Below, one piece after another: positions 3,353-59,480 of a stretch of 64,000 nt of DNA (position 1 is its first letter; every line of letters starts with the position of its first letter). Location: positions 35,957,550-36,021,549 of the forward strand of contig NC_054711.1 of NCBI RefSeq assembly GCF_016097555.1, written 5' to 3'. The stretch comes from Gigantopelta aegis (taxonomy: Eukaryota > Mollusca > Gastropoda > Neomphalida > Peltospiridae). The notes under the pieces are model-generated. The model was given only the letters and a program-made list of their open reading frames with translations. It was not told where the DNA came from and did not search any database. A program made the translations under genes and the position numbers.

Positions 3353-3534
3353 ACAGAGACAGACAGACAGATACACAAACACACAGACAGACAGATAGAC
3401 AGACACACAGAGAGACATACAGACAGACACACAGACAGAGACAGACAGACACACAGAGACAGACAGACAGACACATACACACGCGCGCACACAAACATCA
3501 CACACACACACACACACACACACATAACACACAT
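3353..3534 (+). repeat. Microsatellite: CAGA- then CA-rich
   Basis: Irregular (ACAGAC)n and (CA)n tract leading straight into the 112-bp array, whose unit also contains a CA-rich part. The long open frames on both strands here are low-complexity artefacts. Confidence 0.9.
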
Positions 3535-5097
3535 ATACTATTAGTTACTCGGGTTTTTGACAGGGCGTACGGAATTGTACGCCACTCCAAACTCTGTATA
3601 TCCCGAGGTGCAGGGACACACACACATATGCACACATAACACACATATACTATTAGTTACTCGGGTTTTTGACAGGGCGTACGGAATTGTACGCCACTCC
3701 AAACTCTGTATATCCCGATGTGCAGGGACACACACACATATACACACATAACACACATATACTATTAGTTACTCGGGTTTTTGACAGGGCGTACGGAATT
3801 GTACGCCACTCCAAACTCTGTATATCCCGAGGTGCAGGGACACACACACATATACACACATAACACACATATACTATTAGTTACTCGGGTTTTTGACAGG
3901 GCGTACGGAATTGTACGCCACTCCAAACTCAGTATATCCCGAGGTGCAGGGACACACACACATATACACACATAACACACATATTCTATTAGTTACTCGG
4001 GTTTTTGACAGGGCGTACGGAATTGTACGCCACTCCAAACTCTGTATATCCCGATGTGCAGGGACACACACACATATACACACATAACACACATATACTA
4101 TTAGTTACTCGGGTTTTTGACAGGGCGTACGGAATTGTACGCCACTCCAAACTTTGTATATCCCGAGGTGCAGGGACACACACACATATGCACACATAAC
4201 ACACATATACTATTAGTTACTCGGGTTTTTGACAGGGCGTACGGAATTGTACGCCACTCCAAACTCTGTATATATCCCGATGTGCAGGGACACACACACA
4301 TATACACACATAACACACATATACTATTAGTTACTCGGGTTTTTGACAGGGCGTACGGAATTGTACGCCACTCCAAACTCTGTATATCCCGATGTGCAGG
4401 GACACACACACATATACACACATAACACACATATACTATTAGTTACTCGGGTTTTTGACAGGGCGTACGGAATTGTACGCCACTCCAAACTCTGTATATC
4501 CCGAGGTGCAGGGACACACACACATATACACACATAACACACATATACTATTAGTTACTCGGGTTTTTGACAGGGCGTACGGAATTGTACGCCACTCCAA
4601 ACTCAGTATATCCCGAGGTGCAGGGACACACACACATATACACACATAACACACATATTCTATTAGTTACTCGGGTTTTTGACAGGGCGTACGGAATTGT
4701 ACGCCACTCCAAACTCTGTATATCCCGATGTGCAGGGACACACACACATATACACACATAACACACATATACTATTAGTTACTCGGGTTTTTGACAGGGC
4801 GTACGGAATTGTACGCCACTCCAAACTTTGTATATCCCGAGGTGCAGGGACACACACACATATACACACATAACACACATATACTATTACTTACTCGGGT
4901 TTTTGACAGGGCGTACGGAATTGTACGCCACTCCAAACTCTGTATATCCCGATGTGCAGGGACACACACACATATACACACATAACACACATATACTATT
5001 AGGTACTCGGGTTTTTGACAGGGCGTACGGAATTGTACGCCACTCCAAACTCTGTATATCCCGATGTGCAGGGACACACAAACATATACACACATAA
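3533..5097 (+). repeat. 112-bp tandem array, about 14 copies
   Basis: Each unit contains CTATTAGTTACTCGGGTTTT, the hairpin-capable GGCGTACGGAATTGTACGCC, TGTATATCCCGA and a CA-rich tail. Spacing is 112 bp except one unit carrying an extra TA. Diagnostic variants (for example the change to CTCAGTATATC at about 3930 and 4604) recur 674 bp apart, so a six-unit block was itself duplicated. Because 112 is not a multiple of 3, the many 64-71-residue frames are merely one unit each and are not genes. Confidence 0.95.
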
Positions 5098-5390
5098 CTA
5101 GAGGACATTGATTAATTAACCATCAGTTATTGGATGTCAAACATTTGGTAATTTGTATACGTAGTCTTCAGTGGAAACCCGCTACATGTTTCCACTAGCA
5201 ACATGGGATCTTTTATATGCATTTTATCACAGACAAGACAGCACATACCACTGTCTTTGATAATCAAATCACGGGGCCCTGATTGGGAGGGGGAAAAGCA
5301 CAATCAGTGAATAAGTCCACTGAGGGGGTTGGATCTAGCGATCTCAAGCACCTCAAGTTAGAGTTTAGACAGAACGGTAGGTCATAATGC
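5098..5390 (-). mobile_element. SINE, type 1 body with B tail (minus), decayed
   Basis: It abuts the 112-bp array. It carries TTGATTAATTAACCATCAG, TATTGGATGTCAAACATTTG and GAAACCCGCTACATG in the order expected for a minus-strand B-tail SINE. The head side is degenerate and the extreme tail is missing, perhaps replaced by array expansion. Confidence 0.7.
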
Positions 5391-5545
5391 TGTATCGCAG
5401 GGTCGTGATGGTATCGGCGGGGAAACGTGACTCAAAGTGTAAATGTTGATCTGCATATTTCATGTGGTTATTTGTTTCAAACATTACATTATTTGTAGTT
5501 CCCATAGATTTCTTTCCTACCCAAATATGTGAGCGATTTTCTATA

Positions 5546-6110
5546 ACGTAGCCCAGTGGTAAAGCGCTCGATCTCTGTCGGTTGGCCCATTTGGACTATT
5601 TCTTGCTCCAGCCTGTGCACCACTACTGGTATATCAAAGGCCGTGGTATGTGCTACCCTGTCTATGGGATGGTGCATAAAACGATCCCCTGTTACTAATG
5701 GAAAAATGTAGCGGGTTTCCTCTCTAAGACTATGTGTCAACAATTACTAAATATTTGACATCCAATAGCCAAAGATTAATAAATCAATGTGCTCTAGTGG
5801 TGTCGTTAAACAAACCAAACTTTATAAAAGATCCCTTGTTATTAATGGGAAAATGTAGCGGGTTTCCACTTTAAGACAATATGTCAAAATTTCCAAATGT
5901 TTGACATCCAATAGCCAATGATTAATAAATCAATGTGCTCTAGTGGTGTCGTTAAACAAAACAAACTTTATAAAAGATCCCTTGCTACTAATGGGAAAAT
6001 GTAGCGGCTTTCCACTCTAAGACTATATGTCAAAATTACCAAATGTTTGACATCCAATATCCAATGATTAATAAATCAATGTGCTCTAGTGGTGTCGTTG
6101 AACAAAACAA
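5546..6110 (+). mobile_element. SINE with B tail present three times in tandem
   Basis: The tRNA-like head starts at GTAGCCCAGTGGTAAAGCG (A-box like). The body GTATATCAAAGGCCGTGG is followed by a tail running from ATAAAA-GATCCC to GTGTCGTTAAACAAA. The tail module then repeats twice more with a 146-bp spacing (AAAGATCCC near 5675, 5827 and 5973). Tandem duplication of only the 3' end is unusual for a SINE. Confidence 0.85.
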
Positions 6111-6147
6111 ATTGTTTTTGTTCCTATGACTTTCATTCCTATATAGC

Positions 6148-19055: not shown

Positions 19056-20577
19056 TATACTGAACAAAATAAGAAACTTCCGCAACCTTTGCTTGAACAT
19101 AACTTGATGAAAACAAACCGGGGGAATAATTGTTATATATGTGTTTAAAGAGTGTTCCATGATGCATCGTTTGGTGCAAAAATCATGGCCATAGGTTAAC
19201 AGAAACTGGGAGAAATTTTGACCAAGTGTGGTAGGGGTTAAAAATAAAAACACCCACTTAATAACTGGTATGACCACCTCTTGAATTGACCACTGCAGTG
19301 CATCGCAGGCGTATACAATTGACTAAAGTGTTGATTTCTGCCTGTGGAATATTGTTCCATTCCTGAATGAGCGCTTGACGAAGTTCATTGACGTTAGCGG
19401 GTGGGTTGGGACGACGCCTCAATCGTCTGTCCAGACTATCCCAGGCATGCTCGATGGGGTTGAGATCAGGACTTTTAGTGGGCCAGTCATCAATGAAATC
19501 AATGTTATTTGTCCTAAGAAAATTTACAGTGTCTCTAGCTGTATAAGAGGTGGCATTATCATGCTGAAAAATCGAGATGTTGGCATTGTTATGGAACAGA
19601 GGAATGACGTGATGAGCAAGAATGTCATCACGGTAACGTTGAGCATTTAAATTGCCATCAATGACGACTAGTGGTGAACAATAACCATGGGCAATGGTTG
19701 CCCAAACCATGACAGAACCCCCACCCCCGAAATGATCTCGTTCAAGAACACAACAGTCAGCATAGCGTTCATTTCTCCAACGGTAGACGTGCACCCTGCC
19801 ATCACCACGTTGTAAAGAAAATCGGGATTCATCCGAAAAAAGAACGGTATTCCAGCATCGCCGTATCCAACGAGTGTGTACACGTGCCCAATTAAGATGA
19901 TTTAGACAATGACGTTGCGTTAAAACGCATCCGACGTATGGATGTCGTGCATGTAAACCGTTCTCCCGTAGACAATTACGAACAGTTTTCCCACTGATTC
20001 GGTTATTGTGAAGCCCAGGTGTGTTAGCAGCAGTAGCAGTGGCAGTTTGGAATCGATTGCACAAATGCATGTTCATGATATAGCGGTCTTGACCACGTGT
20101 TGTAACACGCGGACGTCCACGAGGTGGCAAGTCTTTGGTGCTTCCTGTCGTTCGAAATCTTACGCGAAGATTCGTATCGCTCGACTAGAACTCCCAACAT
20201 GCCTTGCAACGTCTTCTGTTGACATGCCAGCATCAAGCATGCCAATCGCCCGTTCACGTAAATTATTGGGTATTCTTGGCATACTAAAAATGCTACAATG
20301 TAAAAAACTTAATTTTTTTTACAAATTTTGAAGCGTTTTCATTCACTTGACAAAATTGACCAAATACTACACGGGACACGTCAAACCATGCATGCATGTG
20401 CAAATTGAATTTCACGTTGTCAACGATTAACAGTGCAAAAATAATCGATAAAATTCATGAATCCTGATAATACAGCTCAAGGCTAATACTACCTATATAA
20501 TTTCATTACACAATGAATTCTTTAACACAACAAATACTATATGTACAAATCGGAACTTTCTTTTTTTGTTCAGTATA
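19056..20577 (-). mobile_element. Tc1/mariner transposon, nearly complete
   Basis: The ends ATACTGAACAAAATAAGAAA and TTTCTTTTTTTGTTCAGTAT form a TIR of about 27 bp with few mismatches. TA is present outside each end. The 1.52-kb length and single transposase gene on the minus strand are standard for Tc1 elements. The transposase frame is nearly open, so this copy is rather young. Confidence 0.9.
19258..20282 (-). pseudogene. Tc1/mariner transposase, one frame break near the N-terminus
   Basis: The enzyme would cut and paste the surrounding element at TA sites. The natural start is at 20282 (MPRIPNNLRERAIGM, a helix-turn-helix start), but that frame stops at 20160-20162 after 40 codons. The rest is open from about 20130 to the stop at 19258 (290 codons). 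In that part are GRPRVTT, the linker between DNA-binding and catalytic domains; FSDESRF with the first catalytic Asp; GGGGSVMVWA; FQHDNAT with the second Asp; and SPDLNPIEHAWD with the Glu. I count 35 residues between the second Asp and the Glu, against 34 in classic Tc1. The chain ends normally in RGGHTSY. Flanking TIRs confirm the identity. Confidence 0.9.
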
Positions 20578-26169: not shown

Positions 26170-29100
26170 TAGTACATACATCTGTTGAAACATTACCTGC
26201 AGGTTTGGAGATCATCGTACATACAGATTATCGTACATACATCTGTTGAAACATTACCTGCAGGTTTGGAGATCATCGTACATGTATACAGATCATCGTA
26301 CATACATCTGTTGAAACATTACCTGCAGGTTTGGAGATCATCGTACATACATCTGTTGAAACATTACCTGTGGGTTTGGAGATAATCATACATAAATCTG
26401 TTGAAACATTACCTGTGGGTTTGGAGATAATCGTACATAAATCTGTTGAAACATTACCTGTGGGTTTGGAGATCATCGCACATACATCTGTTGAAACATT
26501 ACATGCGGGTTTGGAGATAATCATACATACATCTGTTTAAACATTACTCCCAGGTTTGGAGATAATTGTATATGCATCTGTTGATACATGCAGGTTTGGA
26601 GATCATCGCACATACATCTGTTGAGACATTACGTGCGGGTTTGGAGATCATCGTACATACATCTGTTGAGACATTACCTGCACGTTTGGAGATCATTGTA
26701 CTTACATCTGTTTAAACATTACCTGCAGGTTTGGAGATCATCGTACATACATCTGTTGATACATTACGTGCGGGTTTGGAGATCATCGCACATACATCTG
26801 TTGAAACATTACCTGTGGGTTTGGAGATCATCATACATCTGTTGAAACATTACCTGTGGGTTTGGAGATCATCGCACATACATTTATTGAAACATTACCT
26901 GCAGGTTTGGAGATCATCGTACATACATCTGTTGATACATTACATGCGGGTTTGGAGATCATCACACATACATCTGTTGAAACATTACGTGCGGGTTTGG
27001 AGATCATCGTACATACATCTGTTGAAACATTACTTGCGGGTTTGGAGATCATCGTACATACATCTGTTGAAACATTACCTGCGGGTTTGGAGATCATTGT
27101 ACATACATCTGTTGAAACATTACGTGCAGGTTTGGAGATCATCATACATACATCTGTTTAAACATTACTCCCAGTTTTGGAGATAATCGTACATACATCT
27201 GTTGATACATTACATGCGGGTTTGGAGATCATCACACATACATCTGTTGAAACATTAAGTGCGGGTTTGGAGATCATCGCACATACATCTGTTGAGACAT
27301 TACGTGTGGGTTTGGAGATCATTGCACATACATCTGTTGAGACATTACGTGTGGGTTTGGAGATCATTGCACATACATCTGTTGAAACATTACATGCGGG
27401 TTTGGAGATCATCGCACATACATCTGTTGAGACATTACGTGTGGGTTTGGAGATCATCGCACATACATCTGTTGAAACATTACCTGCAGGTTTGGAGATC
27501 ATCGTACATACATCTGTTGAAACATTACCTGCAGGTTTGGAGATCATCGTACATGTATACAGATCATCGTACATACATCTGTTGAAACATTACCTGCAGG
27601 TTTGGAGATCATCGTACATACATCTGTTGAAACATTACCTGTGGGTTTGGAGATAATCATACATAAATCTGTTGAAACATTACCTGTGGGTTTGGAGATA
27701 ATCGTACATAAATCTGTTGAAATATTACCTGTGGGTTTGGAGATCATCGCACATACATCTGTTGAAACATTACATGCGGGTTTGGAGATAATCATACATA
27801 CATCTGTTTAAACATTACTCCCAGGTTTGGAGATAATCGTATATGCATCTGTTGATACATGCGGGTTTGGAGATCATCGCACATACATCTGTTGAGACAT
27901 TACGTGCGGGTTTGGAGATCATTGCACATACATCTGTTGAAACATTACCTGCGGGTTTGGAGATCATCGCACATACATCTGTTTAAACATTACTTCCTGG
28001 TTTGGAGATAATCGTACATACATCTGTTGATACATTACCTGCGGGTTTGGAGATCATCGTACATACATCTGTTGAAACATTACTTGCGGGTTTGGAGATC
28101 ATCGTACATACATCTGTTGAGACATTACCTGCACGTTTGGAGATCATTGTACTTACATCTGTTTAAACATTACCTGCGGGTTTGGAGATCATCGCACATA
28201 CATCTGTTTAAACATTACTCCCAGTTTTGGAGATAATCGTACATACATCTGTTGATACATTACATGCGGGTTTGGAGATCATCACACATACATCTGTTGA
28301 AACATTACGTGCGGGTTTGGAGATCATCGCACATACATCTGTTGAGACATTACGTGTGGGTTTGGAGATCATCGCACATACATCTGTTGAGACATTACGT
28401 GTGGGTTTGGAGATCATTGCACATACATCTGTTGAAACATTACATGCGGGTTTGGAGATCATCGCACATACATCTGTTGATACATTACGTGCGGGTTTGG
28501 AGATCATCGCACATACATCTGTTGAAACATTACCTGTGGGTTTGGAGATCATCATACATCTGTTGAAACATTACCTGTGGGTTTGGAGATCATCGCACAT
28601 ACATTTATTGAAACATTACCTGCAGGTTTGGAGATCATCGTACATACATCTGTTGAAACATTACTTGCGGGTTTGGATATCCTCGTACAAACATCTGTTA
28701 AAACATTACCTGCGGCTTTGGAGATCATCGTACATACATCTGTTGAAACATTACGTGCAGGTTTGGAGATCATCATACATACATCTGTTTAAACATTACT
28801 CCCAGTTTTGGAGATAATCGTACATACATCTGTTGATACATTACATGCGGGTTTGGAGATCATCACACATACATCTGTTGAAACATTACGTGCGGGTTTG
28901 GAGATCATCGCACATACATCTGTTGAGACATTATGTGTGGGTTTGGAGATCATCGCACATACATCTGTTGAGACATTACGTGTGGGTTTGGAGATCATTG
29001 CACATACATCTGTTGAAACATTACATGCGGGTTTGGAGATCATCGCACATACATCTGTTGAGACATTACGTGTGGGTTTGGAGATCATCGCACATACATC

Positions 29101-32100
29101 TGTTGAAACATTACCTGCAGGTTTTGAGATCATCGCACATACATCTGTTGAGACATTATCTGCACGTTTGGAGATCATCGTACTTACATCTGTTTAAACA
29201 TTACTTCCAGGTTTGGAGATAATCGTACATACATCTGTTGAGACATTACATGCAGGTTTGGAGACCATCGCACATACATCTGTTGATACATTACCTGCGG
29301 GTTTGGAGATCATCGTACATACATCTGTTGAAACATTACTTGCGGGTTTGGAGATCATCGTACATACATCTGTTGAAACATTACCTGTGGGTTTGGAGAT
29401 CATCGTACATACATCTGTTGAAACATTACGTGCAGGTTTGGAGATCATCATACATACATCTGTTTAAACATTACTCCCAGTTTTGGAGATAATCGTACAT
29501 ACATCTGTTGATACATTACATGCGGGTTTGGAGATCATCACACATACATCTGTTGAAACATTACGTGCGGGTTTGGAGATCATCGCACATACATCTGTTG
29601 AGACATTACGTGTGGGTTTGGAGATCATCGCACATACATCTGTTGAGACATTACGTGTGGGTTTGGAGATCATTGCACATACATCTGTTGAAACATTACA
29701 TGCGGGTTTGGAGATCATCGCACATACATATGTTGAGACATTACGTGTGGGTTTGGAGATCATCGCACATACATCTGTTGAAACATTACCTGCAGGTTTT
29801 GAGATCATCGCACATACATCTGTTGAAACATTACGTGCAGGTTTGGAGATCATCATACATACATCTGTTTAAACATTACTCCCAGTTTTGGAGATAATCG
29901 TACATACATCTGTTGATACATTACCTGTGGGTTTGGAGATCATCGCACATACATTTATTGAAACATTACCTGCAGGTTTGGAGATCATCGTACATACATC
30001 TGTTGATACATTACATGCGGGTTTGGAGATCATCACACATACATCTGTTGAAACATTACGTGCGGGTTTGGAGATCATCGTACATACATCTGTTGAAACA
30101 TTACTTGCGGGTTTGGAGATCATCGTACATACATCTGTTGAAACATTACCTGCGGGTTTGGAGATCATTGTACATACATCTGTTGAAACATTACGTGCAG
30201 GTTTGGAGATCATCATACATACATCTGTTTAAACATTACTCCCAGTTTTGGAGATAATCGTACATACATCTGTTGATACATTACATGCGGGTTTGGAGAT
30301 CATCACACATACATCTGTTGAAACATTACGTGCGGGTTTGGAGATCATCGCACATACATCTGTTGAGACATTACGTGTGGGTTTGGAGATCATTGCACAT
30401 ACATCTGTTGAGACATTACGTGTGGGTTTGGAGATCATTGCACATACATCTGTTGAAACATTACATGCGGGTTTGGAGATCATCGCACATACATCTGTTG
30501 AGACATTACGTGTGGGTTTGGAGATCATCGCACATACATCTGTTGAAACATTACCTGCAGGTTTGGAGATCATCGTACATACATCTGTTGAAACATTACC
30601 TGCAGGTTTGGAGATCATCGTACATGTATACAGATCATCGTACATACATCTGTTGAAACATTACCTGCAGGTTTGGAGATCATCGTACATACATCTGTTG
30701 AAACATTACCTGTGGGTTTGGAGATAATCATACATAAATCTGTTGAAACATTACCTGTGGGTTTGGAGATAATCGTACATAAATCTGTTGAAATATTACC
30801 TGTGGGTTTGGAGATCATCGCACATACATCTGTTGAAACATTACATGCGGGTTTGGAGATAATCATACATACATCTGTTTAAACATTACTCCCAGGTTTG
30901 GAGATAATCGTATATGCATCTGTTGATACATGCGGGTTTGGAGATCATCGCACATACATCTGTTGAGACATTACGTGCGGGTTTGGAGATCATTGCACAT
31001 ACATCTGTTGAAACATTACCTGCGGGTTTGGAGATCATCGCACATACATCTGTTTAAACATTACTTCCTGGTTTGGAGATAATCGTACATACATCTGTTG
31101 ATACATTACCTGCGGGTTTGGAGATCATCGTACATACATCTGTTGAAACATTACTTGCGGGTTTGGAGATCATCGTACATACATCTGTTGAGACATTACC
31201 TGCACGTTTGGAGATCATTGTACTTACATCTGTTTAAACATTACCTGCGGGTTTGGAGATCATCGCACATACATCTGTTTAAACATTACTCCCAGTTTTG
31301 GAGATAATCGTACATACATCTGTTGATACATTACATGCGGGTTTGGAGATCATCACACATACATCTGTTGAAACATTACGTGCGGGTTTGGAGATCATCG
31401 CACATACATCTGTTGAGACATTACGTGTGGGTTTGGAGATCATCGCACATACATCTGTTGAGACATTACGTGTGGGTTTGGAGATCATTGCACATACATC
31501 TGTTGAAACATTACATGCGGGTTTGGAGATCATCGCACATACATCTGTTGATACATTACGTGCGGGTTTGGAGATCATCGCACATACATCTGTTGAAACA
31601 TTACCTGTGGGTTTGGAGATCATCATACATCTGTTGAAACATTACCTGTGGGTTTGGAGATCATCGCACATACATTTATTGAAACATTACCTGCAGGTTT
31701 GGAGATCATCGTACATACATCTGTTGAAACATTACTTGCGGGTTTGGATATCCTCGTACAAACATCTGTTAAAACATTACCTGCGGCTTTGGAGATCATC
31801 GTACATACATCTGTTGAAACATTACGTGCAGGTTTGGAGATCATCATACATACATCTGTTTAAACATTACTCCCAGTTTTGGAGATAATCGTACATACAT
31901 CTGTTGATACATTACATGCGGGTTTGGAGATCATCACACATACATCTGTTGAAACATTACGTGCGGGTTTGGAGATCATCGCACATACATCTGTTGAGAC
32001 ATTATGTGTGGGTTTGGAGATCATCGCACATACATCTGTTGAGACATTACGTGTGGGTTTGGAGATCATTGCACATACATCTGTTGAAACATTACATGCG

Positions 32101-35100
32101 GGTTTGGAGATCATCGCACATACATCTGTTGAGACATTACGTGTGGGTTTGGAGATCATCGCACATACATCTGTTGAAACATTACCTGCAGGTTTTGAGA
32201 TCATCGCACATACATCTGTTGAGACATTATCTGCACGTTTGGAGATCATCGTACTTACATCTGTTTAAACATTACTTCCAGGTTTGGAGATAATCGTACA
32301 TACATCTGTTGAGACATTACATGCAGGTTTGGAGACCATCGCACATACATCTGTTGAAACATTACCTGCAGGTTTCGAGATCATCGCACATACATCTGTT
32401 GAGACATTACGTGCGGGTTTGGAGATCATTGCACATACATCTGTTGAAACATTACCTGCGGGTTTGGAGATCATCGCACATACATCTGTTTAAACATTAC
32501 TTCCAGGTTTGGAGATAATCGTACATACATCTGTTGATACATTACCTGCGGGTTTGGAGATCATCGTACATACATCTGTTGAAACATTACTTGCGGGTTT
32601 GGAGATCATCGTACATACATCTGTTGAAACATTACCTGCGGGTTTGGAGATCATCGTACATACATCTGTTGAAACATTACTTGCGGGTTTGGTGATCATC
32701 ACACATACATCTGTTGATACATTACCTGCGGGTTTGGAGATCATCGTACATACATCTGTTGAAACATTACTTGCGGGTTTGGAGATCATCGTACATACAT
32801 CTGTTGAAACATTACCTGTGGGTTTGGAGATCATCGTACATACATCTGTTGAAACATTACGTGCAGGTTTGGAGATCATCATACATACATCTGTTTAAAC
32901 ATTACTCCCAGTTTTGGAGATAATCGTACATACATCTGTTGATACATTACATGCGGGTTTGGAGATCATCACACATACATCTGTTGAAACATTACGTGCG
33001 GGTTTGGAGATCATCGCACATACATCTGTTGAGACATTACGTGTGGGTTTGGAGATCATCGCACATACATCTGTTGAGACATTACGTGTGGGTTTGGAGA
33101 TCATTGCACATACATCTGTTGAAACATTACATGCGGGTTTGGAGATCATCGCACATACATATGTTGAGACATTACGTGTGGGTTTGGAGATCATCGCACA
33201 TACATCTGTTGAAACATTACCTGCAGGTTTTGAGATCATCGCACATACATCTGTTGAAACATTACAGGTTAGATCATCATACATGTTTAAACATTACTCC
33301 CAGTTTTGGAGATAATCGTACATACATCTGTTGATACATTACATGCGGGTTTGGAGATCATCACACATACATCTGTTGAAACATTACGTGCGGGTTTGGA
33401 GATCATCGCACATACATCTGTTGAGACATTACGTGTGGGTTTGGAGATCATCGCACATACATCTGTTGAAACATTACCTGCAGGTTTTGAGATCATCACA
33501 CATACATCTGTTGAGACATTATCTGCACGTTTGGAGATCATCGTACTTACATCTGTTTAAACATTACTTCCAGGTTTGGAGATAATCGTACATACATCTG
33601 TTGAGACATTACATGCAGGTTTGGAGACCATCGCACATACATCTGTCGAAACATTACCTGCAGGTTTGGAGATCATCGCACATACATCTGTTGAGACATT
33701 ACCTGCGGGTTTGGAGATCATCGCACATACATCTGTTTAAACATTACTTCCAGGTTTGGAGATAATCGTACATACATCTGTTGATACATTACCTGCGGGT
33801 TTGGAGATCATCGTACATACATCTGTTGAAACATTACTTGCGGGTTTGGAGATCATCGTACATACATCTGTTGAAACATTACCTGCGGGTTTGGAGATCA
33901 TCGTACATACATCTGTTGAAACATTACTTGCGGGTTTGGTGATCATCACACATACATCTGTTGATACATTACCTGCGGGTTTGGAGATCATCGTACATAC
34001 ATCTGTTGAAACATTACTTGCGGGTTTGGAGATCATCGTACATACATCTGTTGAAACATTACCTGTGGGTTTGGAGATCATCGTACATACATCTGTTGAA
34101 ACATTACGTGCAGGTTTGGAGATCATCATACATACATCTGTTTAAACATTACTCCCAGTTTTGGAGATAATCGTACATACATCTGTTGATACATTACATG
34201 CGGGTTTGGAGATCATCACACATACATCTGTTGAAACATTACGTGCGGGTTTGGAGATCATCGCACATACATCTGTTGAGACATTACGTGTGGGTTTGGA
34301 GATCATTGCACATACATCTGTTGAAACATTACATGCGGGTTTGGAGATCATCGCACATACATCTGTTGAGACATTACGTGTGGGTTTGGAGATCATCGCA
34401 CATACATCTGTTGAGACATTACGTGTGGGTTTGGAGATCATCGCACATACATCTGTTGAAACATTACATGCGGGTTTGGAGATCATCGCACATACATCTG
34501 TTGAGACATTACATGCAGGTTTGGAGACCATCGCACATACATCTGTTGAAACATTACCTGCAGGTTTGGAGATCATCGCACATACATCTGTTGAAACATT
34601 ACCTGCAGGTTTGGAGATCATCGCACATACATCTGTTGAGACATTACGTGCGGGTTTGGAGATCATTGCACATACATCTGTTGAAACATTACCTGCAGGT
34701 TTGGAGATCATCGTACATATATCTGTTGAAACATTACCTGCAGGTTTGGAGATCATCGTACATACATCTGTTGAAACATTACCTGCAGGTTTGGAGATCA
34801 TCGTACATACATCTGTTGAAACATTACTTCCGGGTTTGGAGATCATCATACATACATTTGTTGAAACATTACCTGCAGGTTTGGAGATCATCGTACATAC
34901 ATCTGTTGAAACATTACCTGCAGGTTTGGAGATCATCGTACATACATCTGTTGAAACATTACCTGCGGGTTTGGAGATCATCGTACATACATCTGTTGAA
35001 ACATTACTTCCGGGTTTGGAGATCATCATACATACATCTGTTGAAACATTACCTGCGGGTTTGGAGATCATTGTACATACATCTGTTGAAACATTACCTC

Positions 35101-35118
35101 TGGGTTTGAAGATCATTG
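26170..35118 (+). repeat. 45-bp minisatellite, about 199 units, 8.9 kb
   Basis: The unit is ACATACATCTGTTGAAACAT, TACCTGCAGGTTTGGAGATC, ATCGT. Because 45 is a multiple of 3, frames stay open on both strands and up to 329 codons appear, but variant units (TGTTTAAACATT, and units cut short such as GTACATGTATACAGATCATC) put stops or shifts into each frame, so I do not call it coding. Variants mark kilobase-scale copies: 26850-29280 recurs 3,071 bp further right, and 32490-34129 holds a block repeated at 1,247 bp. It lies upstream of the TRIM-like exon, probably in its intron. Confidence 0.97.
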
Positions 35119-47959: not shown

Positions 47960-49469
47960 ATATTCTCTTCAAAAAAAGAAACGCATAAAGCATATTTTTC
48001 ATAACATTAATTTTGAAATAACACAATAGTGAATGTTTTAGTATTATCTTATTCTATAGCTAGTGGATATGATATCATGCAATTCTGAAGCTGACAAAAC
48101 GCATGATTTGACGTCAGCACGTGCAAATATGTTTTTCACAATATTCATAATAATGGCTGCAGAGCTCACATTTATCACGTACAAATCATGCACGTACAGC
48201 ACGTGCACTACCCCTTGACAGAAAATTGAGTTACATTCACACACGCATTATCGATAGTGTCGCTACGTAACGTTGAAATCATGCCCAGGCTGACAGAACC
48301 ACAACGTAACAACGCAATTGGCTGGATGGAAGCCGGGGAATCGCAATCAACAGTTGCACGTCTTTTCAACACATCTCAGAGTACAATATCTAGGCTTTGG
48401 CACCGTTATCAGCAAACTGGAGTGTCACGTGACCGCCCCAGATCCGGTCGTCCCAGAGTTACCACACCGGCGCAAGACAGATACATACGTCTACGACATT
48501 TACGTGACAGATTCCTAACTGCTTCATCATCAACTTCTGCCATACCTGGGATGCGAAGAATTTCGGACCAGACCGTAAGAAACCGTTTACGTGAAGCCAA
48601 TATCCGAGCTAGAAGACCAGCTAGACGGATAATTTTAAACGCGCAACATAGGCGTCTACGGCTTACATGGTGCAGACGTTGTCTGATATGGCGTCGACAG
48701 CAGTGGCGAAGAGTGGCTTTCAGCGACGAGTCGCGTTTTTTGCTTCAACGCGCCGACGGCAGAGCTAGAGTTTAACGACGACGTAACTAGGTTTATGCCA
48801 ATAAGTGTGTGCGGCAGGTGGACAGATATGGAGGGAGGAGTGTTATGGTATGGGCGGCCATCACTTACACTGGCAGAACAGACCTTGTACATGTCCCAGG
48901 TCAGCTAACAGCCCAACGTTACTGCAACGAAATTCTCCAGCGTCACGCCATACCTTTCATCAACGCAGAAAATGTCATCTTCCAGCACGACAATGCACGA
49001 ACACATAGCGCACGTATAACAACAGACTTCCTGAATCAACACAATGTCGGAGTGATGCCATGGCCTTCAAGATCACCTGATCTTAACCCCATCGAGCACC
49101 GGTGGGATGAACTAGATCGACGTTTACGGCAACGTAACCCTGCGCCACAAACGCTACCCCCAGCTGCTCCAGGCTTTGCAACAAACATGGGCTGTGATTC
49201 AAGCATTATTTGATTCCATGCGTAGGAGATGCAAAGCCGTCATTGCTGCTCATGGGGCTCATACTCGATATTAGTGTCCATGACCGTGACCTTGATACGG
49301 TGGCCTAATCCTGTTGATTTGATAGACGATTTCATTCCAAGTGATGATCTGATCATGTTTAACAAGTTTCAGTTTTACTGCTCTGGTATTGAGCAAAGAT
49401 ATGATGCTATAAATCTGCAACCCAATCCTAACATATACCAGTTATGCGTTTCTTTTTTTGAAGAGTATA
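47960..49469 (+). mobile_element. Tc1-like transposon inserted in a SINE
   Basis: The ends TCTTCAAAAAAAGAAACGCA and TGCGTTTCTTTTTTTGAAGA are near-perfect inverted repeats of about 27 bp. The element is about 1.5 kb with one plus-strand transposase gene. The target is a TA in the SINE at 47869-49602. The ends resemble those of the decayed element at 14679. Confidence 0.9.
48281..49274 (+). pseudogene. Tc1-like transposase with frameshifts
   Basis: The start at 48281 (MPRLTEPQRNNAIGWMEAG) begins a helix-turn-helix with QSTISRLWHRYQQTG, followed by the GRPRVTT linker and FSDESRFLLQ with the first catalytic Asp. The frame is lost near 48770. It recovers around 48810 with YGGRSVMVWAAI, FQHDNARTHSA (second Asp) and SPDLNPIEHRWDELDRRL (Glu); I count 34 residues between the last two, as in classic Tc1. 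A second shift near 49150 moves the C-terminus to another frame, ending in AAHGAHTRY and TAG at 49272-49274. It is thus a recently damaged copy, not active. The upstream in-frame Met at 48257 is less likely as start because MPRL aligns with other Tc1 proteins. Confidence 0.9.
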
Positions 49470-51292: not shown

Positions 51293-51673
51293 AAGGGACA
51301 TTCCTGAGTTTGCTGCAATTTATGTCATCGACTAACAGATACTTTTTTAACGATTGTAATTGCATATGAAATATATTTGTCTGCATAAAATATCAGTGTC
51401 TGTATATTAAACGTGTTTCTGATCGTTTTAATATTTGTTCTAGGTTAAATTTCATTTTATTTCCTAAAAGATTGTTTTTTCGTACGTACGAAATTATTTG
51501 AAGACACAATCCAATTTGGGCTTCTTACAAACATTAAGACGATCAGAAACATATTGAATATACAGACATTGATATTCTAAACGAGAAAATATATTTAATA
51601 TACAAGTTTAATCGTAGAAATAGTTTATTAGTCGAAAACATCTTACAATGCAGAAAACTCAGGAATGTCCCTT
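51293..51673. mobile_element. Palindromic TA-flanked MITE, copy 2
   Basis: AAGGGACATTCCTGAGTTTG and AAACTCAGGAATGTCCCTT with TA on each side; 381 bp, closely matching 40947-41331 throughout. Both copies keep the CGTACGTACG centre. Confidence 0.9.
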
Positions 51674-51949
51674 TACATTCGGCGTTGCACACACAGCTCG
51701 TGCAAAATGGGCTCACGTGATTCGCGTTTGTACGAACGGCTGCGTTTGGGTGATGCATCGAGTAGAAACTTTGTTGTGTATAATACACCTGGTTTTGAAT
51801 ATCCTCGACTTATTTTGGAGAGTATATTATGATTTAAAGAGTAAATTATACGTACGAGTATGACAACACACCCAACCTGTACCGATACACTCGGTTATAA
51901 TCGTTGTTCGTTGTTAATCCCGATCTCATAGATTCGACTGAATTTCTTA

Positions 51950-52027
51950 ACCATATACAGGATACTACATACCACGGCCTTTGATGTGCCAGTCGTTGTG
52001 CACTGGCTGGAGCGAGAAATAGTCCAA
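51950..52027 (-). mobile_element. SINE body fragment (minus)
   Basis: GGATACTACATACCACGGCC, GTCGTTGTGCACTGGCTGGA, AGTCCAATGGGCC. It stops exactly where the CATAAGCGTACG TIR element begins. Confidence 0.7.
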
Positions 52028-52204
52028 TGGGCCATAAGCGTACGAGACGAGGGGGGGGGCGGAAGGGGGGACTCACCCCTAGTACTGGAGCAAAACCTCA
52101 AATTCGGGCAAAAATTATAAAAATATTTGGAAAAAAAAGAGTGCTAATCAGACTTCTTTACCGTGTATTTCCATCAATTTACCCTCAAAATTAGTTGTAA
52201 TCAT

Positions 52205-52219
52205 CACTGGCGTAGGAAG

Positions 52220-52260
<41 letters not shown>

Positions 52261-52324
52261 TTTGTAGCAGCAGCGATTGTTTTTATATATTTATACATGT
52301 ATTTGGCACCTTCCTACGCCAGTG
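52205..52324. mobile_element. MITE, 120 bp, perfect 15-bp TIR
   Basis: CACTGGCGTAGGAAG and CTTCCTACGCCAGTG. A G-run of nearly 40 bases lies just inside the left end. A decayed relative ends CTTCCTATGCCAGTG at 58339-58353. Confidence 0.85.
52220..52258 (+). repeat. Poly-G tract
   Basis: About 38 G in a row within the MITE. Its length is likely to be unreliable, and it is a G-quadruplex candidate. Confidence 0.9.
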
Positions 52325-52459
52325 TCCATGTAAAAATGCGTAGTGATTCGTTTGCAAACCCATATAGCTGTTTGACTGTAATGCTAATATGTTATCCAGA
52401 TTAGGGCATTTTCGTTTAATTCACGCAAAAACCAACCTGCACCCCTACAAAAATGGGAG

Positions 52460-52808
52460 GGGAAGGCGGGGGTGGGGGTGGGTGGGGTACGTAGCCCAGT
52501 GGTAAAGCGTTCGCTTGATGCGCGGTCGGTCTGGGATCGATACCCGTCGGTGGACCCATTGAGCTATTTCTCGCTCCAGCCAGTGCACCTCGACAGGTAT
52601 ATCAAAGACCGCGGTATGTGCTATCCTGTGTGGGATGGTGCATATAAAAGATCCCTTGCTGCTAATCGAAAAAAGATTAGCCCATGAAGTGGCGAAAGCG
52701 GGTTTCCGCTCTCAGTATATGTGTGGTCCATAAACATATATTCGACGCCATATAACCGTATATAAAATGTGTTGAGTGCGTCATTAAATAAAACATTTCC
52801 TTCCTTTT
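52460..52808 (+). mobile_element. Full-length SINE, type 1 head, A tail, 17-bp target duplication
   Basis: CCCTACAAAAATGGGAG (52443-52459) recurs as CCCTACAGAAATGGGAG (52809-52825), one mismatch. Head GTAGCCCAGTGGTAAAGCG (A box), GGGATCGATACCC (B-box region), body GTATATCAAAGACCGCGG, tail GTGCGTCATTAAATAAAACA. Confidence 0.93.
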
Positions 52809-52824
52809 CCCTACAGAAATGGGA

Positions 52825-55800
52825 GCCTGTACACCAGGTCCTATATGCTGTACATTCTCCCATCCAGAGTGAGTTTAACGACTCACGGAGTATCTATAGG
52901 TGTACGGTCACTGCACCGACTTCGCTCTTACTAACAACTAACCCATTGCGCTGTACAGATAGGCCAGATAGCCTGTACACCAGGTCCTATATGCTGTATA
53001 TTCTCCCATCCAGAGTGAGTTTAACGACTCACTGAGTATCTATAGGTGTACGGTCACTGCACCGACTTCGCTCTTACTAACAACTAACCCATTGCGCTGT
53101 ACAGATAGGCCAGATAGCCTGTACACCAGGTCCTATATGCTGTACATTCTCCCATCCAGAGTGAGTTTAACGACTCACGGAGTATCTATAGGTGTACGGT
53201 CACTGCACCGACTTCGCTCTTACTAACAACTAACCCATTGCGCTGTACAGATAGGCCAGATAGCCTGTACACCAGGTCCTATATGCTGTATATTCTCCCA
53301 TCCAGAGTGAGTTTAACGACTCACTGAGTATCTATAGGTGTACGGTCACTGCACCGACTTCGCTCTTACTAACAACTAACCCATTGCGCTGTACAGATAG
53401 GCCAGATAGCCTGTACACCAGGTCCTATATGCTGTACATTCTCCCATCCAGAGTGAGTTTAACGACTCACGGAGTATCTATAGGTGTACGGTCACTGCAC
53501 CGACTTCGCTCTTACTAACAACTAACCCATTGCGCTGTACAGATAGGCCAGATAGCCTGTACACCAGGTCCTATATGCTGTATATTCTCCCATCCAGAGT
53601 GAGTTTAACGACTCACTGAGTATCTATAGGTGTACGGTCACTGCACCGACTTCGCTCTTACTAACAACTAACCCATTGCGCTGTACAGATAGGCCAGATA
53701 GCCTGTACACCAGGTCCTATATGCTGTATATTCTCCCATCCAGAGTGAGTTTAACGACTCACGGAGTATCTATAGGTGTACGGTCACTGCACCGACTTCG
53801 CTCTTACTAACAACTAACCCATTGCGCTGTACAGATAGGCCAGATAGCCTGTACACCAGGTCCTATATGCTGTATATTCTCCCATCCAGAGTGAGTTTAA
53901 CGACTCACTGAGTATCTATAGGTGTACGGTCACTGCACCGACTTCGCTCTTACTAACAACTAACCCATTGCGCTGTACAGATAGGCCAGATAGCCTGTAC
54001 ACCAGGTCCTATATGCTGTATATTCTCCCATCCAGAGTGAGTTTAACGACTCACTGAGTATCTATAGGTGTACGGTCACTGCACCGACTTCGCTCTTACT
54101 AACAACTAACCCATTGCGCTGTACAGATAGGCCAGATAGCCTGTACACCAGGTCCTATATGCTGTATATTCTCCCATCCAGAGTGAGTTTAACGACTCAC
54201 TGAGTATCTATAGGTGTACGGTCACTGCACCGACTTCGCTCTTACTAACAACTAACCCATTGCGCTGTACAGATAGGCCAGATAGCCTGTACACCAGGTC
54301 CTATATGCTGTATATTCTCCCATCCAGAGTGAGTTTAACGACTCACTGAGTATCTATAGGTGTACGGTCACTGCACCGACTTCGCTCTTACTAACAACTA
54401 ACCCATTGCGCTGTACAGATAGGCCAGATAGCCTGTACACCAGGTCCTATATGCTGTATATTCTCCCATCCAGAGTGAGTTTAACGACTCACGGAGTATC
54501 TATAGGTGTACGGTCACTGCACCGACTTCGCTCTTACTAACAACTAACCCATTGCGCTGTACAGATAGGCCAGATAGCCTGTACACCAGGTCCTATATGC
54601 TGTATATTCTCCCATCCAGAGTGAGTTTAACGACTCACGGAGTATCTATAGGTGTACGGTCACTGCACCGACTTCGCTCTTACTAACAACTAACCCATTG
54701 CGCTGTACAGATAGGCCAGATAGCCTGTACACCAGGTCCTATATGCTGTATATTCTCCCATCCAGAGTGAGTTTAACGACTCACTGAGTATCTATAGGTG
54801 TACGGTCACTGCACCGACTTCGCTCTTACTAACAACTAACCCATTGCGCTGTACAGATAGGCCAGATAGCCTGTACACCAGGTCCTATATGCTGTATATT
54901 CTCCCATCCAGAGTGAGTTTAACGACTCACTGAGTATCTATAGGTGTACGGTCACTGCACCGACTTCGCTCTTACTAACAACTAACCCATTGCGCTGTAC
55001 AGATAGGCCAGATAGCCTGTACACCAGGTCCTATATGCTGTATATTCTCCCATCCAGAGTGAGTTTAACGACTCACTGAGTATCTATAGGTGTACGGTCA
55101 CTGCACCGACTTCGCTCTTACTAACAACTAACCCATTGCGCTGTACAGATAGGCCAGATAGCCTGTACACCAGGTCCTATATGCTGTATATTCTCCCATC
55201 CAGAGTGAGTTTAACGACTCACTGAGTATCTATAGGTGTACGGTCACTGCACCGACTTCGCTCTTACTAACAACTAACCCATTGCGCTGTACAGATAGGC
55301 CAGATAGCCTGTACACCAGGTCCTATATGCTGTATATTCTCCCATCCAGAGTGAGTTTAACGACTCACTGAGTATCTATAGGTGTACGGTCACTGCACCG
55401 ACTTCGCTCTTACTAACAACTAACCCATTGCGCTGTACAGATAGGCCAGATAGCCTGTACACCAGGTCCTATATGCTGTATATTCTCCCATCCAGAGTGA
55501 GTTTAACGACTCACGGAGTATCTATAGGTGTACGGTCACTGCACCGACTTCGCTCTTACTAACAACTAACCCATTGCGCTGTACAGATAGGCCAGATAGC
55601 CTGTACACCAGGTCCTATATGCTGTATATTCTCCCATCCAGAGTGAGTTTAACGACTCACTGAGTATCTATAGGTGTACGGTCACTGCACCGACTTCGCT
55701 CTTACTAACAACTAACCCATTGCGCTGTACAGATAGGCCAGATAGCCTGTACACCAGGTCCTATATGCTGTATATTCTCCCATCCAGAGTGAGTTTAACG

Positions 55801-58080
55801 ACTCACTGAGTATCTATAGGTGTACGGTCGCTGCACCGACTTCGCTCTTACTAACAACTAACCCATTGCGCTGTACAGATAGGCCAGATAGCCTGTACAC
55901 CAGGTCCTATATGCTGTATATTCTCCCATCCAGAGTGAGTTTAACGACTCACTGAGTATCTATAGGTGTACGGTCGCTGCACCGACTTCGCTCTTACTAA
56001 CAACTAACCCATTGCGCTGTACAGATAGGCCAGATAGCCTGTACACCAGGTCCTATATGCTGTATATTCTCCCATCCAGAGTGAGTTTAACGACTCACTG
56101 AGTATCTATAGGTGTACGGTCACTGCACCGACTTCGCTCTTACTAACAACTAACCCATTGCGCTGTACAGATAGGCCAGATAGCCTGTACACCAGGTCCT
56201 ATATGCTGTATATTCTCCCATCCAGAGTGAGTTTAACGACTCACTGAGTATCTATAGGTGTACGGTCACTGCACCGACTTCGCTCTTACTAACAACTAAC
56301 CCATTGCGCTGTACAGATAGGCCAGATAGCCTGTACACCAGGTCCTATATGCTGTATATTCTCCCATCCAGAGTGAGTTTAACGACTCACTGAGTATCTA
56401 TAGGTGTACGGTCACTGCACTGACTTCGCTCTTACTAACAACTAACCCATTGCGCTGTACAGATAGGCCAGATAGCCTGTACACCAGGTCCTATATGCTG
56501 TATATTCTCCCATCCAGAGTGAGTTTAACGACTCACTGAGTATCTATAGGTGTACGGTCACTGCACCGACTTCGCTCTTACTAACAACTAACCCATTGCG
56601 CTGTACAGATAGGCCAGATAGCCTGTACACCAGGTCCTATATGCTGTATATTCTCCCATCCAGAGTGAGTTTAACGACTCACTGAGTATCTATAGGTGTA
56701 CGGTCACTGCACCGACTTCGCTCTTACTAACAACTAACCCATTGCGTTGTACAGATAGGCCAGATAGCCTGTACACCAGGTCCTATATGCTGTATATTCT
56801 CCCATCCAGAGTGAGTTTAACGACTCACGGAGTATCTATAGGTGTACGGTCACTGCACCGACTTCGCTCTTACTAACAACTAACCCATTGCGCTGTACAG
56901 ATAGGCCAGATAGCCTGTACACCAGGTCCTATATGCTGTATATTCTCCCATCCAGAGTGAGTTTAACGACTCACTGAGTATCTATAGGTGTACGGTCACT
57001 GCACCGACTTCGCTCTTACTAACAACTAACCCATTGCGTTGTACAGATAGGCCAGATAGCCTGTACACCAGGTCCTATATGCTGTATATTCTCCCATCCA
57101 GAGTGAGTTTAACGACTCACTGAGTATCTATAGGTGTACGGTCACTGCACCGACTTCGCTCTTACTAACAACTAACCCATTGCGCTGTACAGATAGGCCA
57201 GATAGCCTGTACACCAGGTCCTATATGCTGTATATTCTCCCATCCAGAGTGAGTTTAACGACTCACTGAGTATCTATAGATGTACGGTCACTGCACCGAC
57301 TTCGCTCTTACTAACAACTAACCCATTGCGCTGTACAGATAGGCCAGATAGCCTGTACACCAGGTCCTATATGCTGTATATTCTCCCATCCAGAGTGAGT
57401 TTAACGACTCACGGAGTATCTATAGGTGTACGGTCACTGCACCGACTTCGCTCTTACTAACAACTAACCCATTGCGCTGTACAGATAGGCCAGATAGCCT
57501 GTACACCAGGTCCTATATGCTGTATATTCTCCCATCCAGAGTGAGTTTAACGACTCACTGAGTATCTATAGGTGTACGGTCACTGCACCGACTTCGCTCT
57601 TACTAACAACTAACCCATTGCGCTGTACAGATAGGCCAGATAGCCTGTACACCAGGTCCTATATGCTGTATATTCTCCCATCCAGAGTGAGTTTAACGAC
57701 TCACTGAGTATCTATAGGTGTACGGTCACTGCACCGACTTCGCTCTTACTAACAACTAACCCATTGCGCTGTACAGATAGGCCAGATAGCCTGTACACCA
57801 GGTCCTATATGCTGTATATTCTCCCATCCAGAGTGAGTTTAACGACTCACTGAGTATCTATAGGTGTACGGTCACTGCACCGACTTCGCTCTTACTAACA
57901 ACTAACCCATTGCGCTGTACAGATAGGCCAGATAGCCTGTACACCAGGTCCTATATGCTGTATATTCTCCCATCCAGAGTGAGTTTAACGACTCACTGAG
58001 TATCTATAGGTGTACGGTCACTGCACCGACTTCGCTCTTACTAACAACTAACCCATTGCGCTGTACAGATAGGCCAGATA
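52825..58080 (+). repeat. 146-bp satellite, 36 units
   Basis: The unit begins GCCTGTACACCAGGTCCTAT and ends ATTGCGCTGTACAGATAGGC, CAGATA. The length 5,256 bp is exactly 36 x 146 by the positions I read. Units are nearly identical; the main variants are TACATT/TATATT and CACGG/CACTG, which alternate in the first six units (a dimer), plus rare GGTCGCTGC and GCGTTGTAC. The unit matches the middle of the type 2 SINE: CTCCCATCCAGAGTGAG against CTCCCACCCAGAGCGAG, and CTAACAACTAACCCATTG against CTAACGACTAACCCACTG. No frame is coding. Confidence 0.97.
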
Positions 58081-58150
58081 GCTCAAGTGTGTGCCCATGA
58101 CAGCGTGTTTTAACCTTAATTGGACATAAGCACGAAAATAAGTAGAAATC
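58081..58150 (+). mobile_element. 3' end of the type 2 SINE that hosts the satellite
   Basis: GCTCAAGTGTGTGCCCATGA, AACCTTAATTGGACATAAGC, ACGAAAATAAGTAGAAAT follows the last satellite unit without a break, exactly as the corresponding words follow CCAGATAGCTGAGG in the SINE copy at 2452 (read in reverse). Confidence 0.85.
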
Positions 58151-58195
58151 AGACTATCAAAAATTAAACTGGTCATTGAATCGCCGGAAAGTCAA

Positions 58196-58353
58196 TCAGT
58201 GCAGTGGAGTTGGAAGGTGCCAAAAGGTGTGTGGGGGGTGTGGGGGGGGGGGTGTGGGGAGTATATAAATATATATAAACCATCGCTGCTGCTGCTGGAT
58301 CAAAAAAAGTGTGAGGGGGGCACATGCCTCCCTCTCCGCTTCCTATGCCAGTG
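58196..58353. mobile_element. Decayed relative of the CACTGGCGTAGGAAG MITE
   Basis: The right end CTTCCTATGCCAGTG differs by one base from that at 52310. The left end is poorly kept (CAGTGCAGTGGAGTTGGAAG). The G/GT-rich interior (58229-58260) matches the position of the G-run in the other copy. Confidence 0.5.
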
Positions 58354-59480
58354 CCCATTCACATATATATTTTTTTAATCTTCGCATCTCCTGCAACAAA
58401 ATTGGGAGATCCCACACACTAATGTCAAATTCCTCCAGACGCCCCCGAAAACGTTTTTCGAATCCTTGTTTATTTACTGTAAACATGTTCACTGAGTACA
58501 ATATGAACAGCGCGAAAGCGTTCATTAAATGCAAGTGCGGCTAACCCGTGCCGATTATGCAATATTTCCTCTCAGACTGCTTGTATTTGGTTCTCAACCA
58601 TGCAAATGACCTTGCGTGAACCGGCCTTGAAAGACTGCAGCGATACTACATGCCTGTGTAAAACCAACACGATATATTTAACATTCCATGTAGGCTACAT
58701 CGTGTGCATGTGTCAGTGATCGTGAAATTACACTAACATCAAAAATGAGAAGAAGAATGAAGTAGTAATATCATAGACGGAATAAAAGGAAGTCATATTG
58801 TTTTTATATTCACCAATTTGACATTGATTTTGTATTTATGTTTCGCAAACGTGTAGTAACCATAAATGGGCAAACTTTACTCGCTTCGCGCAGCTTTCAC
58901 ACCGTCTCGCACGCTCACATGTCTGACAAAACAGAAATAACGTATATAATCTGAATTGATCGGTTTATGCTGTACACTGCAATGCAATCAACAGAACAAT
59001 TAGGACGGTTACTAATTAAATACAGTCGGCTAAAATGTGTACAACATGATCAACGGAAGATAATATATTCTGGCGGAGTATTTCGTGTAATGTAATAAGT
59101 CCGAACCGCTTCACACGCACCAGTGATACAAATCAATCCGACCCATTTTGCCTCATTCTAAACCGGAAATTTGACTACTTAATTTCCTGATTTTTATATT
59201 TGAAAATTATTTTAAATACTTTACGAAATATAATATTTTGTACAAAAATAAACCTTAATCCATTTGAAAAAACATGTGTAAATGTCGGTTGCCATGTTGA
59301 AAATGCGAGGCCATGTGACTGTGTCTTCACATCAAAGTGGTTGACTTCCAACCTGGCTGTAGGTGCTGATAGCCCGTTTTTACCCATTTATATCCAGTTT
59401 GCTGTAAATATTTCGAAACTGTCAGTAATTCGGAAACGGGTACTAATAGAAACAACAGGAAATTTATGTTCGTAGCTCGT
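58354..59480. other. No gene seen
   Basis: Unique-looking sequence without recognised repeat or domain. A frame at 59200-59475 has no familiar motif. Confidence 0.45.

Follow-up and report, generated by a model that had tools for sequence, protein, structure and literature searches.

A 36-unit, 146-bp tandem array between a MITE and a SINE in Gigantopelta aegis and its probable origin across the junction of the two elements

The window analysed here is a stretch of 64,000 nucleotides from the gastropod Gigantopelta aegis (contig NC_054711.1, positions 35,957,550 to 36,021,549). It contains a tandem array of 36 units of 146 bp, which a first-pass annotation had described as a satellite born inside a short interspersed element (SINE). 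The array lies among copies of SINE1, SINE2 and two miniature inverted-repeat transposable elements (MITE-A and MITE-B, with terminal inverted repeats, TIRs). The features of the locus, in window coordinates, are as follows.

51951-52032, minus strand: SINE1 fragment that hosts the MITE-A insertion (S1 73-155, 90.4%)
52033-52202, plus strand: left part of MITE-A (consensus 1-167, 81% by BLAST to the consensus, TIR CATAAGCGTACGAGAC), within the minus-strand SINE1 fragment
52205-52324, no strand assigned: MITE-B (TIRs CACTGGCGTAGGAAG / CTTCCTACGCCAGTG), nested in MITE-A; TIR copies at 52205 (plus) and 52310 (minus)
52325-52459, plus strand: right part of MITE-A (consensus 166-311, 86%)
52443-52459, plus strand: left target-site duplication of SINE1 (CCCTACAAAAATGGGAG), 16 of 17 bases identical to 52809-52825
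52486-52806, plus strand: SINE1 inserted in the MITE-A terminus (92.9% to the SINE1 consensus; best genome relatives 92%)
52809-52825, plus strand: right copy of the SINE1 target-site duplication (CCCTACAGAAATGGGAG), overlapping the start of the array by two bases
52824-58082, plus strand: tandem array, 36 units of 146 bp (Tandem Repeats Finder and register table)
52824-52835, plus strand: positions 1-12 of the first unit, most likely the right terminus of MITE-A (AGCCTGTACACC, consensus AGCCCGTACGCC)
52836-52856, plus strand: first unit, positions 13-33, a 21-bp stretch without firm assignment (no fit to the SINE2 head above shuffles)
57967-58149, plus strand: SINE2 body and 3' end, with no break between the last unit and the tail (consensus 75-259 of 265)

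When the window was run through Tandem Repeats Finder, the array was returned at 52824-58082 with a period of 146, 36.0 copies, 99% matches and 0% indels. Cut in register it gave 36 units of exactly 146 bp each, in agreement with the size and copy number first proposed. The units depart from their consensus at 18 places in total, confined to six unit positions (30, 64, 77, 87, 94 and 128), and pairs of units differ on average by 0.87 of the 146 bases (99.4% pairwise identity; maximum 3). At the left end of the array units 1, 3 and 5 have both 30C and 64G and units 2, 4 and 6 have neither, so that a 292-bp dimer pattern appears. Units two apart differ by 0.65, compared with 0.87 in shuffles (P=0.006), a signal that comes mainly from units 1-6. 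This supports growth of the array partly by two-unit steps. One variant is exclusive to units 21-22; units 12-13 both have 64G, which is present in further units too. The same variants bear on the possibility that the array is an effect of assembly, in which a short true array of a few units was inflated or a longer array was collapsed. Tandem arrays are difficult to assemble and the left six units repeat the 292-bp pattern exactly, but at five unit positions the variants occur in non-repetitive order across units 7-36, which is not expected from a simple duplication error. Such an effect, which we regard as highly improbable, would change the copy number and not the origin.

For the right edge a SINE2 consensus of 265 bp was built from 30 genome copies, including the one in the window. 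The last unit and the tail aligned with consensus 75-259 as a single BLAST piece (79.6% over 191 columns, E=2.1e-44), which confirms that the last unit runs unbroken into the 3' end of the SINE. The alignment extends well past the tail and crosses 58081 without a gap; a separate insertion of the tail at that point, which would have spoken against the proposed descent, was not found. Taken alone, 58081-58149 is 89.9% identical to SINE2 191-259, and the SINE2 3' end stops at 58149. In a search with 58081-58215, the 39 other scored matches ended at positions 69-91 of the 135-base query, which is the end of the SINE or at most 22 bases past it. The SINE-derived part of the unit corresponds to unit 34-146 and SINE2 75-192; it scored 120 against the SINE2 body, and 500 shuffles gave 19.7 ± 3.8 with a maximum of 39. 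The divergence of the body and the tail of this SINE2 copy (17% and 11%) does not differ significantly (P=0.37). The SINE2 head, consensus 1-74, is not recognisable at the array locus, and neither unit 1-33 nor unit 13-33, anchored to the head, fitted it better than shuffles (P 0.33-1.0). The claim that the unit is an internal SINE segment thus holds for unit 34-146 and is not supported for unit 1-33, where no match to the SINE2 head was found.

SINE2 itself acts like a retroposon, being dispersed, short and accompanied by target-site duplications. Of the 28 copies whose 5' end is complete, 22 had flank duplications of at least 9 bp, compared with 54 of 756 mismatched control pairs. For this analysis, the loci with a full 5' end were used, i.e. 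28 of 29 for SINE2 and 16 of 19 for SINE1. The tRNA origin of SINE2 was not confirmed, since there was no Rfam match at E<=1 in positions 1420-1780 of locus L041 and no ARAGORN match on the consensus; GGTTCGCAGCC in SINE2 we take to be box-like. As a target duplication of the array-attached copy, a 9-bp exact match between 58147-58155 and 52146-52154 was considered and rejected: MITE-A is continuous across 52146-52154, so no SINE2 start lies at that point.

The occurrence of the unit was studied in an assembly of 1.149 Gb in 5216 contigs, in which genome match counts are lower bounds. Seventy-five unit matches were scored, from 40 of 1056 candidates. Thirty-six of them are the array itself (99-100% identity) and the other 39 are dispersed copies, 77-83% identical, that start at unit position 34-37. 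Mapping of the unit across the genome, which the first-pass annotation had proposed as a check, therefore placed the whole unit at this locus and at no second one among the scored matches, which suggests an array confined to one locus rather than a satellite spread over the genome. The right flank (58360-58900) had a single match in the assembly. Among the scored matches, the left flank (51480-51945) was matched in full only by itself, the 41 others lying inside its first 196-202 bases, nearly all at 91-95% over about 196. Among the scored matches, these flank searches showed neither another allele nor another copy of the locus. Window positions 51480-51675 are the end of another dispersed repeat. 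The array, a single locus, lies at 36.0 Mb of a 42.25-Mb contig. With a length of 5.3 kb and one locus among the scored matches, it is not classical satellite DNA in the sense of very long or multi-locus arrays.

A ready-made array could also have been inserted from elsewhere, for example after amplification as a circle; circles are a known source of arrays, and the length and uniformity of the array would agree with this. Against it, no other scored match carries the unit, and the outer units are continuous with the elements that flank the array here, as would not be expected of an insertion. An origin of this kind is hardly credible.

At the left edge the situation is obscured by SINE1, whose insertion with a 16/17 target duplication makes MITE-A and the array look separated. 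A 325-bp consensus of MITE-A was derived from the 7 loci, out of 29, whose left end could be recognised. MITE-A is dispersed (40 matches scored, 39 of them elsewhere in the genome, 80-87%), and its genome copies begin with CATAAGCGTACGAGAC and end with CCTACAAAAATGGGAGCCCGTACGCCTATG. Flank duplications of 8 bases with one or two mismatches were seen by eye at three loci (L018, L023 and L030). MITE-A 295-321 and window 52809-52835 are alike at 24 of 27 bp. Past the SINE1 duplication, MITE-A predicts CCCGTACGCC and the array reads CCTGTACACC, an agreement of 8/10 at a fixed place (P=4e-4); at least 8/10 of those MITE-A bases are kept in 22 of 29 other genome loci. The two mismatches between MITE and array inside the unit are of the CpG-to-TpG/CpA type. 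Since variants occur only at unit positions 30, 64, 77, 87, 94 and 128, all 36 units have the same first 12 bp. As judged from the alignment, every unit most likely opens with the MITE-A terminus (12 bases). The earlier remark that the unit start resembles the end of the TIR element was right, and on the short evidence of these 12 bp the left edge, formerly left ambiguous, is settled for MITE-A. In unit 13-33, CCTATATG may hold the displaced last MITE-A bases TATG, and a loose gapped alignment extends MITE-A there; both are only suggestive. The SINE1 sequence is presumably reminiscent of molluscan SINEs.

The same bases have to be accounted for if the whole unit is a strongly diverged internal SINE2 segment that includes part of the head (about 39-74), the likeness to the MITE being due to chance. 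The distance from the array start to SINE2 position 75 is roughly the expected length, a global alignment can be drawn, and in the 30C units GTAC (unit 27-30) might correspond to the GTACC of SINE2. However, unit 1-33 stays at shuffle level against the head, with the adjoining body far above it, none of the 39 scored matches elsewhere starts before unit position 34, and the bases concerned fit the terminus of the MITE that borders the array on its left. This explanation is therefore considered unlikely.

Taken together, we consider it about 75% probable that the array is non-coding and has grown in place across a junction of MITE-A and SINE2, inside a nest of dead transposons. The following course of events is proposed. 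MITE-A inserted into the minus-strand SINE1 fragment (51951-52032), and a deletion or other rearrangement would then have brought its right terminus against an old, headless SINE2. A 146-bp segment spanning the junction, made up of 12 bp from the MITE end, 21 bp of uncertain source and 113 bp from the SINE body, would have been duplicated in tandem. The joint between units reads GAT-AGC-CTG. Its AGC recurs at the two parental breakpoints, in GGG-AGC-CTG for the MITE and in GAT-AGC-TCA for the SINE, as would be expected after a duplication mediated by microhomology. Growth to 36 units would have followed by unequal exchange or slippage, partly in two-unit steps. The joining of MITE and SINE by a rearrangement, the duplication by microhomology and the mode of growth are all inferred; observed directly are the array, its attachment to the SINE at the right, its MITE-like start at the left, the lack of a second locus among the scored matches, the 3-bp shared joint and the dimeric pattern at the left end. 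The description "born inside a SINE" is thus correct in that a SINE2 segment was amplified and is still joined to its 3' end, and falls short in that the unit also seems to hold a MITE end. The array still touches both of its probable parents, MITE-A on the left and SINE2 on the right. MITE-A is 81-86% identical to its consensus, the SINE2 tail 90% and SINE1 93%, and the units are mutually 99.4% identical. As the units are far more alike than the elements are to their consensus, the expansion or the last homogenisation is younger than all three insertions; the array appears to be young or recently homogenised.

Several observations weigh against this origin. Unit positions 13-33 (21 bp) are left unexplained, and the MITE part of the unit amounts to 12 bp with 8 of 10 informative bases in agreement. 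No target duplication was established for the array-attached SINE2 copy. The second target copy of MITE-A expected on its far side, CAATGGGC, and the other half of the SINE1 fragment are absent, no SINE1 match being present between 52806 and 60263; since the expected right flank of MITE-A is missing, a rearrangement must be assumed. A shared joint of 3 bp is frequent by chance. Neighbouring units are no closer than shuffled ones (0.857 and 0.869 differences), so the argument for one-unit steps comes down to the pair 21-22, which faintly suggests them. Finally, the length and homogeneity of the array hinge on the assembly.

The proximity of SINE1 allows a different trigger. Its retrotransposition could have started the array if the first tandem duplication arose during repair of the second cut. 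In target-primed reverse transcription this second DNA cut is made at the end of the target duplication, and the left breakpoint of the array, which because of the AGC ambiguity can be any cut in 52823-52827, includes the end of the right SINE1 duplication (52825/52826). A chance coincidence of the breakpoints is not remote, as the A-rich end of MITE-A, near the array start, may be a preferred target. We hold a role of SINE1 as the trigger to be very unlikely; if true, retroposition and the birth of a satellite would be directly linked.

No function is indicated for the array, whose unit is without the SINE head. The DNA structure predicted for the unit was not beyond shuffles (z=0.30), and its inverted repeats are short only, e.g. 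CTGTACAG. Rfam and ARAGORN gave no matches in the window, the array region, one SINE2 locus or the consensus sequences.

Two other arrangements of the same elements were observed. Copies of MITE-B are present on each side of the array (52205-52324 and 58202-58355) in opposite orientation; one end and the middle align, and in the right copy the outer TIR was recognised by eye. At locus L035 (1500-1787), the MITE-A right end adjoins the SINE2 3' end in opposite orientation, the SINE being cut by a (GA)n run.

A special seeding role of SINEs, as implied by the original description, was examined in a survey of tandem arrays with a period of at least 30 in the window and 76 loci (77 sources, 284,400 usable bases). 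These loci are flanks of transposon copies and not a random sample of the genome. Left out were L001-L009, L039 and L069, which are the window's own sequence, L059, which overlaps L058, and arrays overlapping the locus centre. Four reference sequences were used, one of which (S1b) is a stretch of the window itself. The 45 arrays surveyed took up 10.6% of the bases, and SINE coverage was 12.5%. SINE-derived units were found in 5 of the 45: the array studied here, window 5676-6111, L010, L042 and L076. Random placement of segments of the same lengths gave an expectation of 6.6 ± 2.3 when at least 25 bp of overlap with annotated SINEs was required and of 7.1 ± 2.3 by the BLAST criterion used for the units (E<=1e-3; P(>=5)=0.87, P(<=5)=0.24). 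SINEs were hit no more often than their coverage would lead one to expect, and as preferred array seeds they are thus not supported. A MITE-A-derived unit occurred in 1 of 45 arrays (L024; random expectation 1.1 ± 1.0). Because S1b was taken from the window, the 5676-6111 array matches its own sequence in this reference; without S1b, 4 of 45 arrays stay SINE-derived, 5676-6111 among them via S1. The survey warns against claims that SINEs seed satellites where tandem arrays are frequent anyway. The periods lay between 30 and 294, and inspection by eye showed no clear peak, so no claim is made for 146 bp as nucleosome-sized, though a second SINE-attached array has the same 146-bp period.

The SINE-derived satellites Squam1/2/3 of squamates (Vassetzky et al. 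2023, PMC10702118) resemble the array in several respects, as far as that account describes them. Their unit covers part of a SINE and the outer unit reaches the SINE terminus (here SINE2 259 of 265), alternating sub-variants suggest dimeric growth, and longer arrays are more uniform, which we count as a likeness. Arrays of nearly 950 and over 1200 units are given there. Unlike what is described for them, the unit in Gigantopelta seems to include the end of a DNA transposon, it was found at one locus among the scored matches and not at many with the same unit, and SINEs were not over-represented as seeds in the survey; the SINE family and the genome are others. In the limpet Patella caerulea, PcH-sat is described as derived from Nin-SINE, with 118 of 179 bp matched to the SINE (PMC11121367). 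It shares with the present array, by description and not by sequence, a truncated SINE segment without promoter boxes and a part that is unmatched to the SINE. According to that description, however, PcH-sat is abundant (about 10% of the genome) and mainly pericentromeric, whereas here there is one 5.3-kb array.

The origin of composite satellite DNA monomers from transposon graveyards was put forward as a hypothesis by Satovic-Vuksic et al. (2025, PMC12628747). The array is like that model, in the form outlined there, in that its monomer would consist of more than one transposable element and would have arisen in a nest of nested, truncated elements. The unit appears to hold stretches of at least two, 12 bp of MITE-A and 113 bp of SINE2, the MITE part being short; in distinction to the model, both parents still border the array. 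Arrays derived from transposable elements are common in human as well, where 2663 of 7276 minisatellites were Alu-associated (Ahmed and Liang 2012, as cited in a 2022 review, PMC9659126); by that citation the likeness is in frequency, as elements and genome differ. A literature search with stretches of the SINE sequence yielded no paper, from which absence from print is not claimed. SINE-derived satellites and the composite-monomer proposal are already published, and the array is a good example and not a new kind. The beginnings of satellites are usually lost once they have become abundant. Here the first stage can still be read, with the probable parents flanking the array, a shared joint and no second scored locus, which provides a concrete single-locus case for the 2025 proposal.

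The region of the array is rich in tandem arrays, which were also frequent in the survey sample. One of those in the window is again attached to a SINE.

5545-6111, plus strand: second, smaller SINE-attached array, a SINE1-type head and three 146-bp units of the 3' half

Tandem Repeats Finder reported 5676-6111 with 3.0 copies of 146 bp (92%), and S1 matches were found at 5546-5566 and 5568-5712, with further ones in units two and three. The element is of the SINE1 type with a different 3' end and has its head still attached, an early-stage SINE-derived array. Larger than the 146-bp array is one of 8.8 kb at 26290-35116, with a 45-bp unit and a 135-bp higher-order period; its 45-bp unit had no match to the four transposable-element references. 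At 3504-5098 there are 14 units of 112 bp, 97% alike, with an AC-rich stretch and GGGCGTACGGAATTGTACGCC with GTACG/CGTAC inverted copies. Tc1/mariner-type transposase frames (HTH_Tnp_Tc3_2, DDE_3) are located at 19258-20184 (minus strand) and 48230-49213 (plus strand), the second being split over two frames. Elsewhere in the genome, locus L024 (1739-1996) has a 97-bp array of 2.7 copies whose unit matches the MITE-A left end, i.e. a MITE-A-derived array. At L058/L059 (C3:7.38 Mb), two SINE2 copies are separated by 966 bp and have 45-bp arrays to either side, which suggests that the SINE was carried along in a longer tandem duplication.

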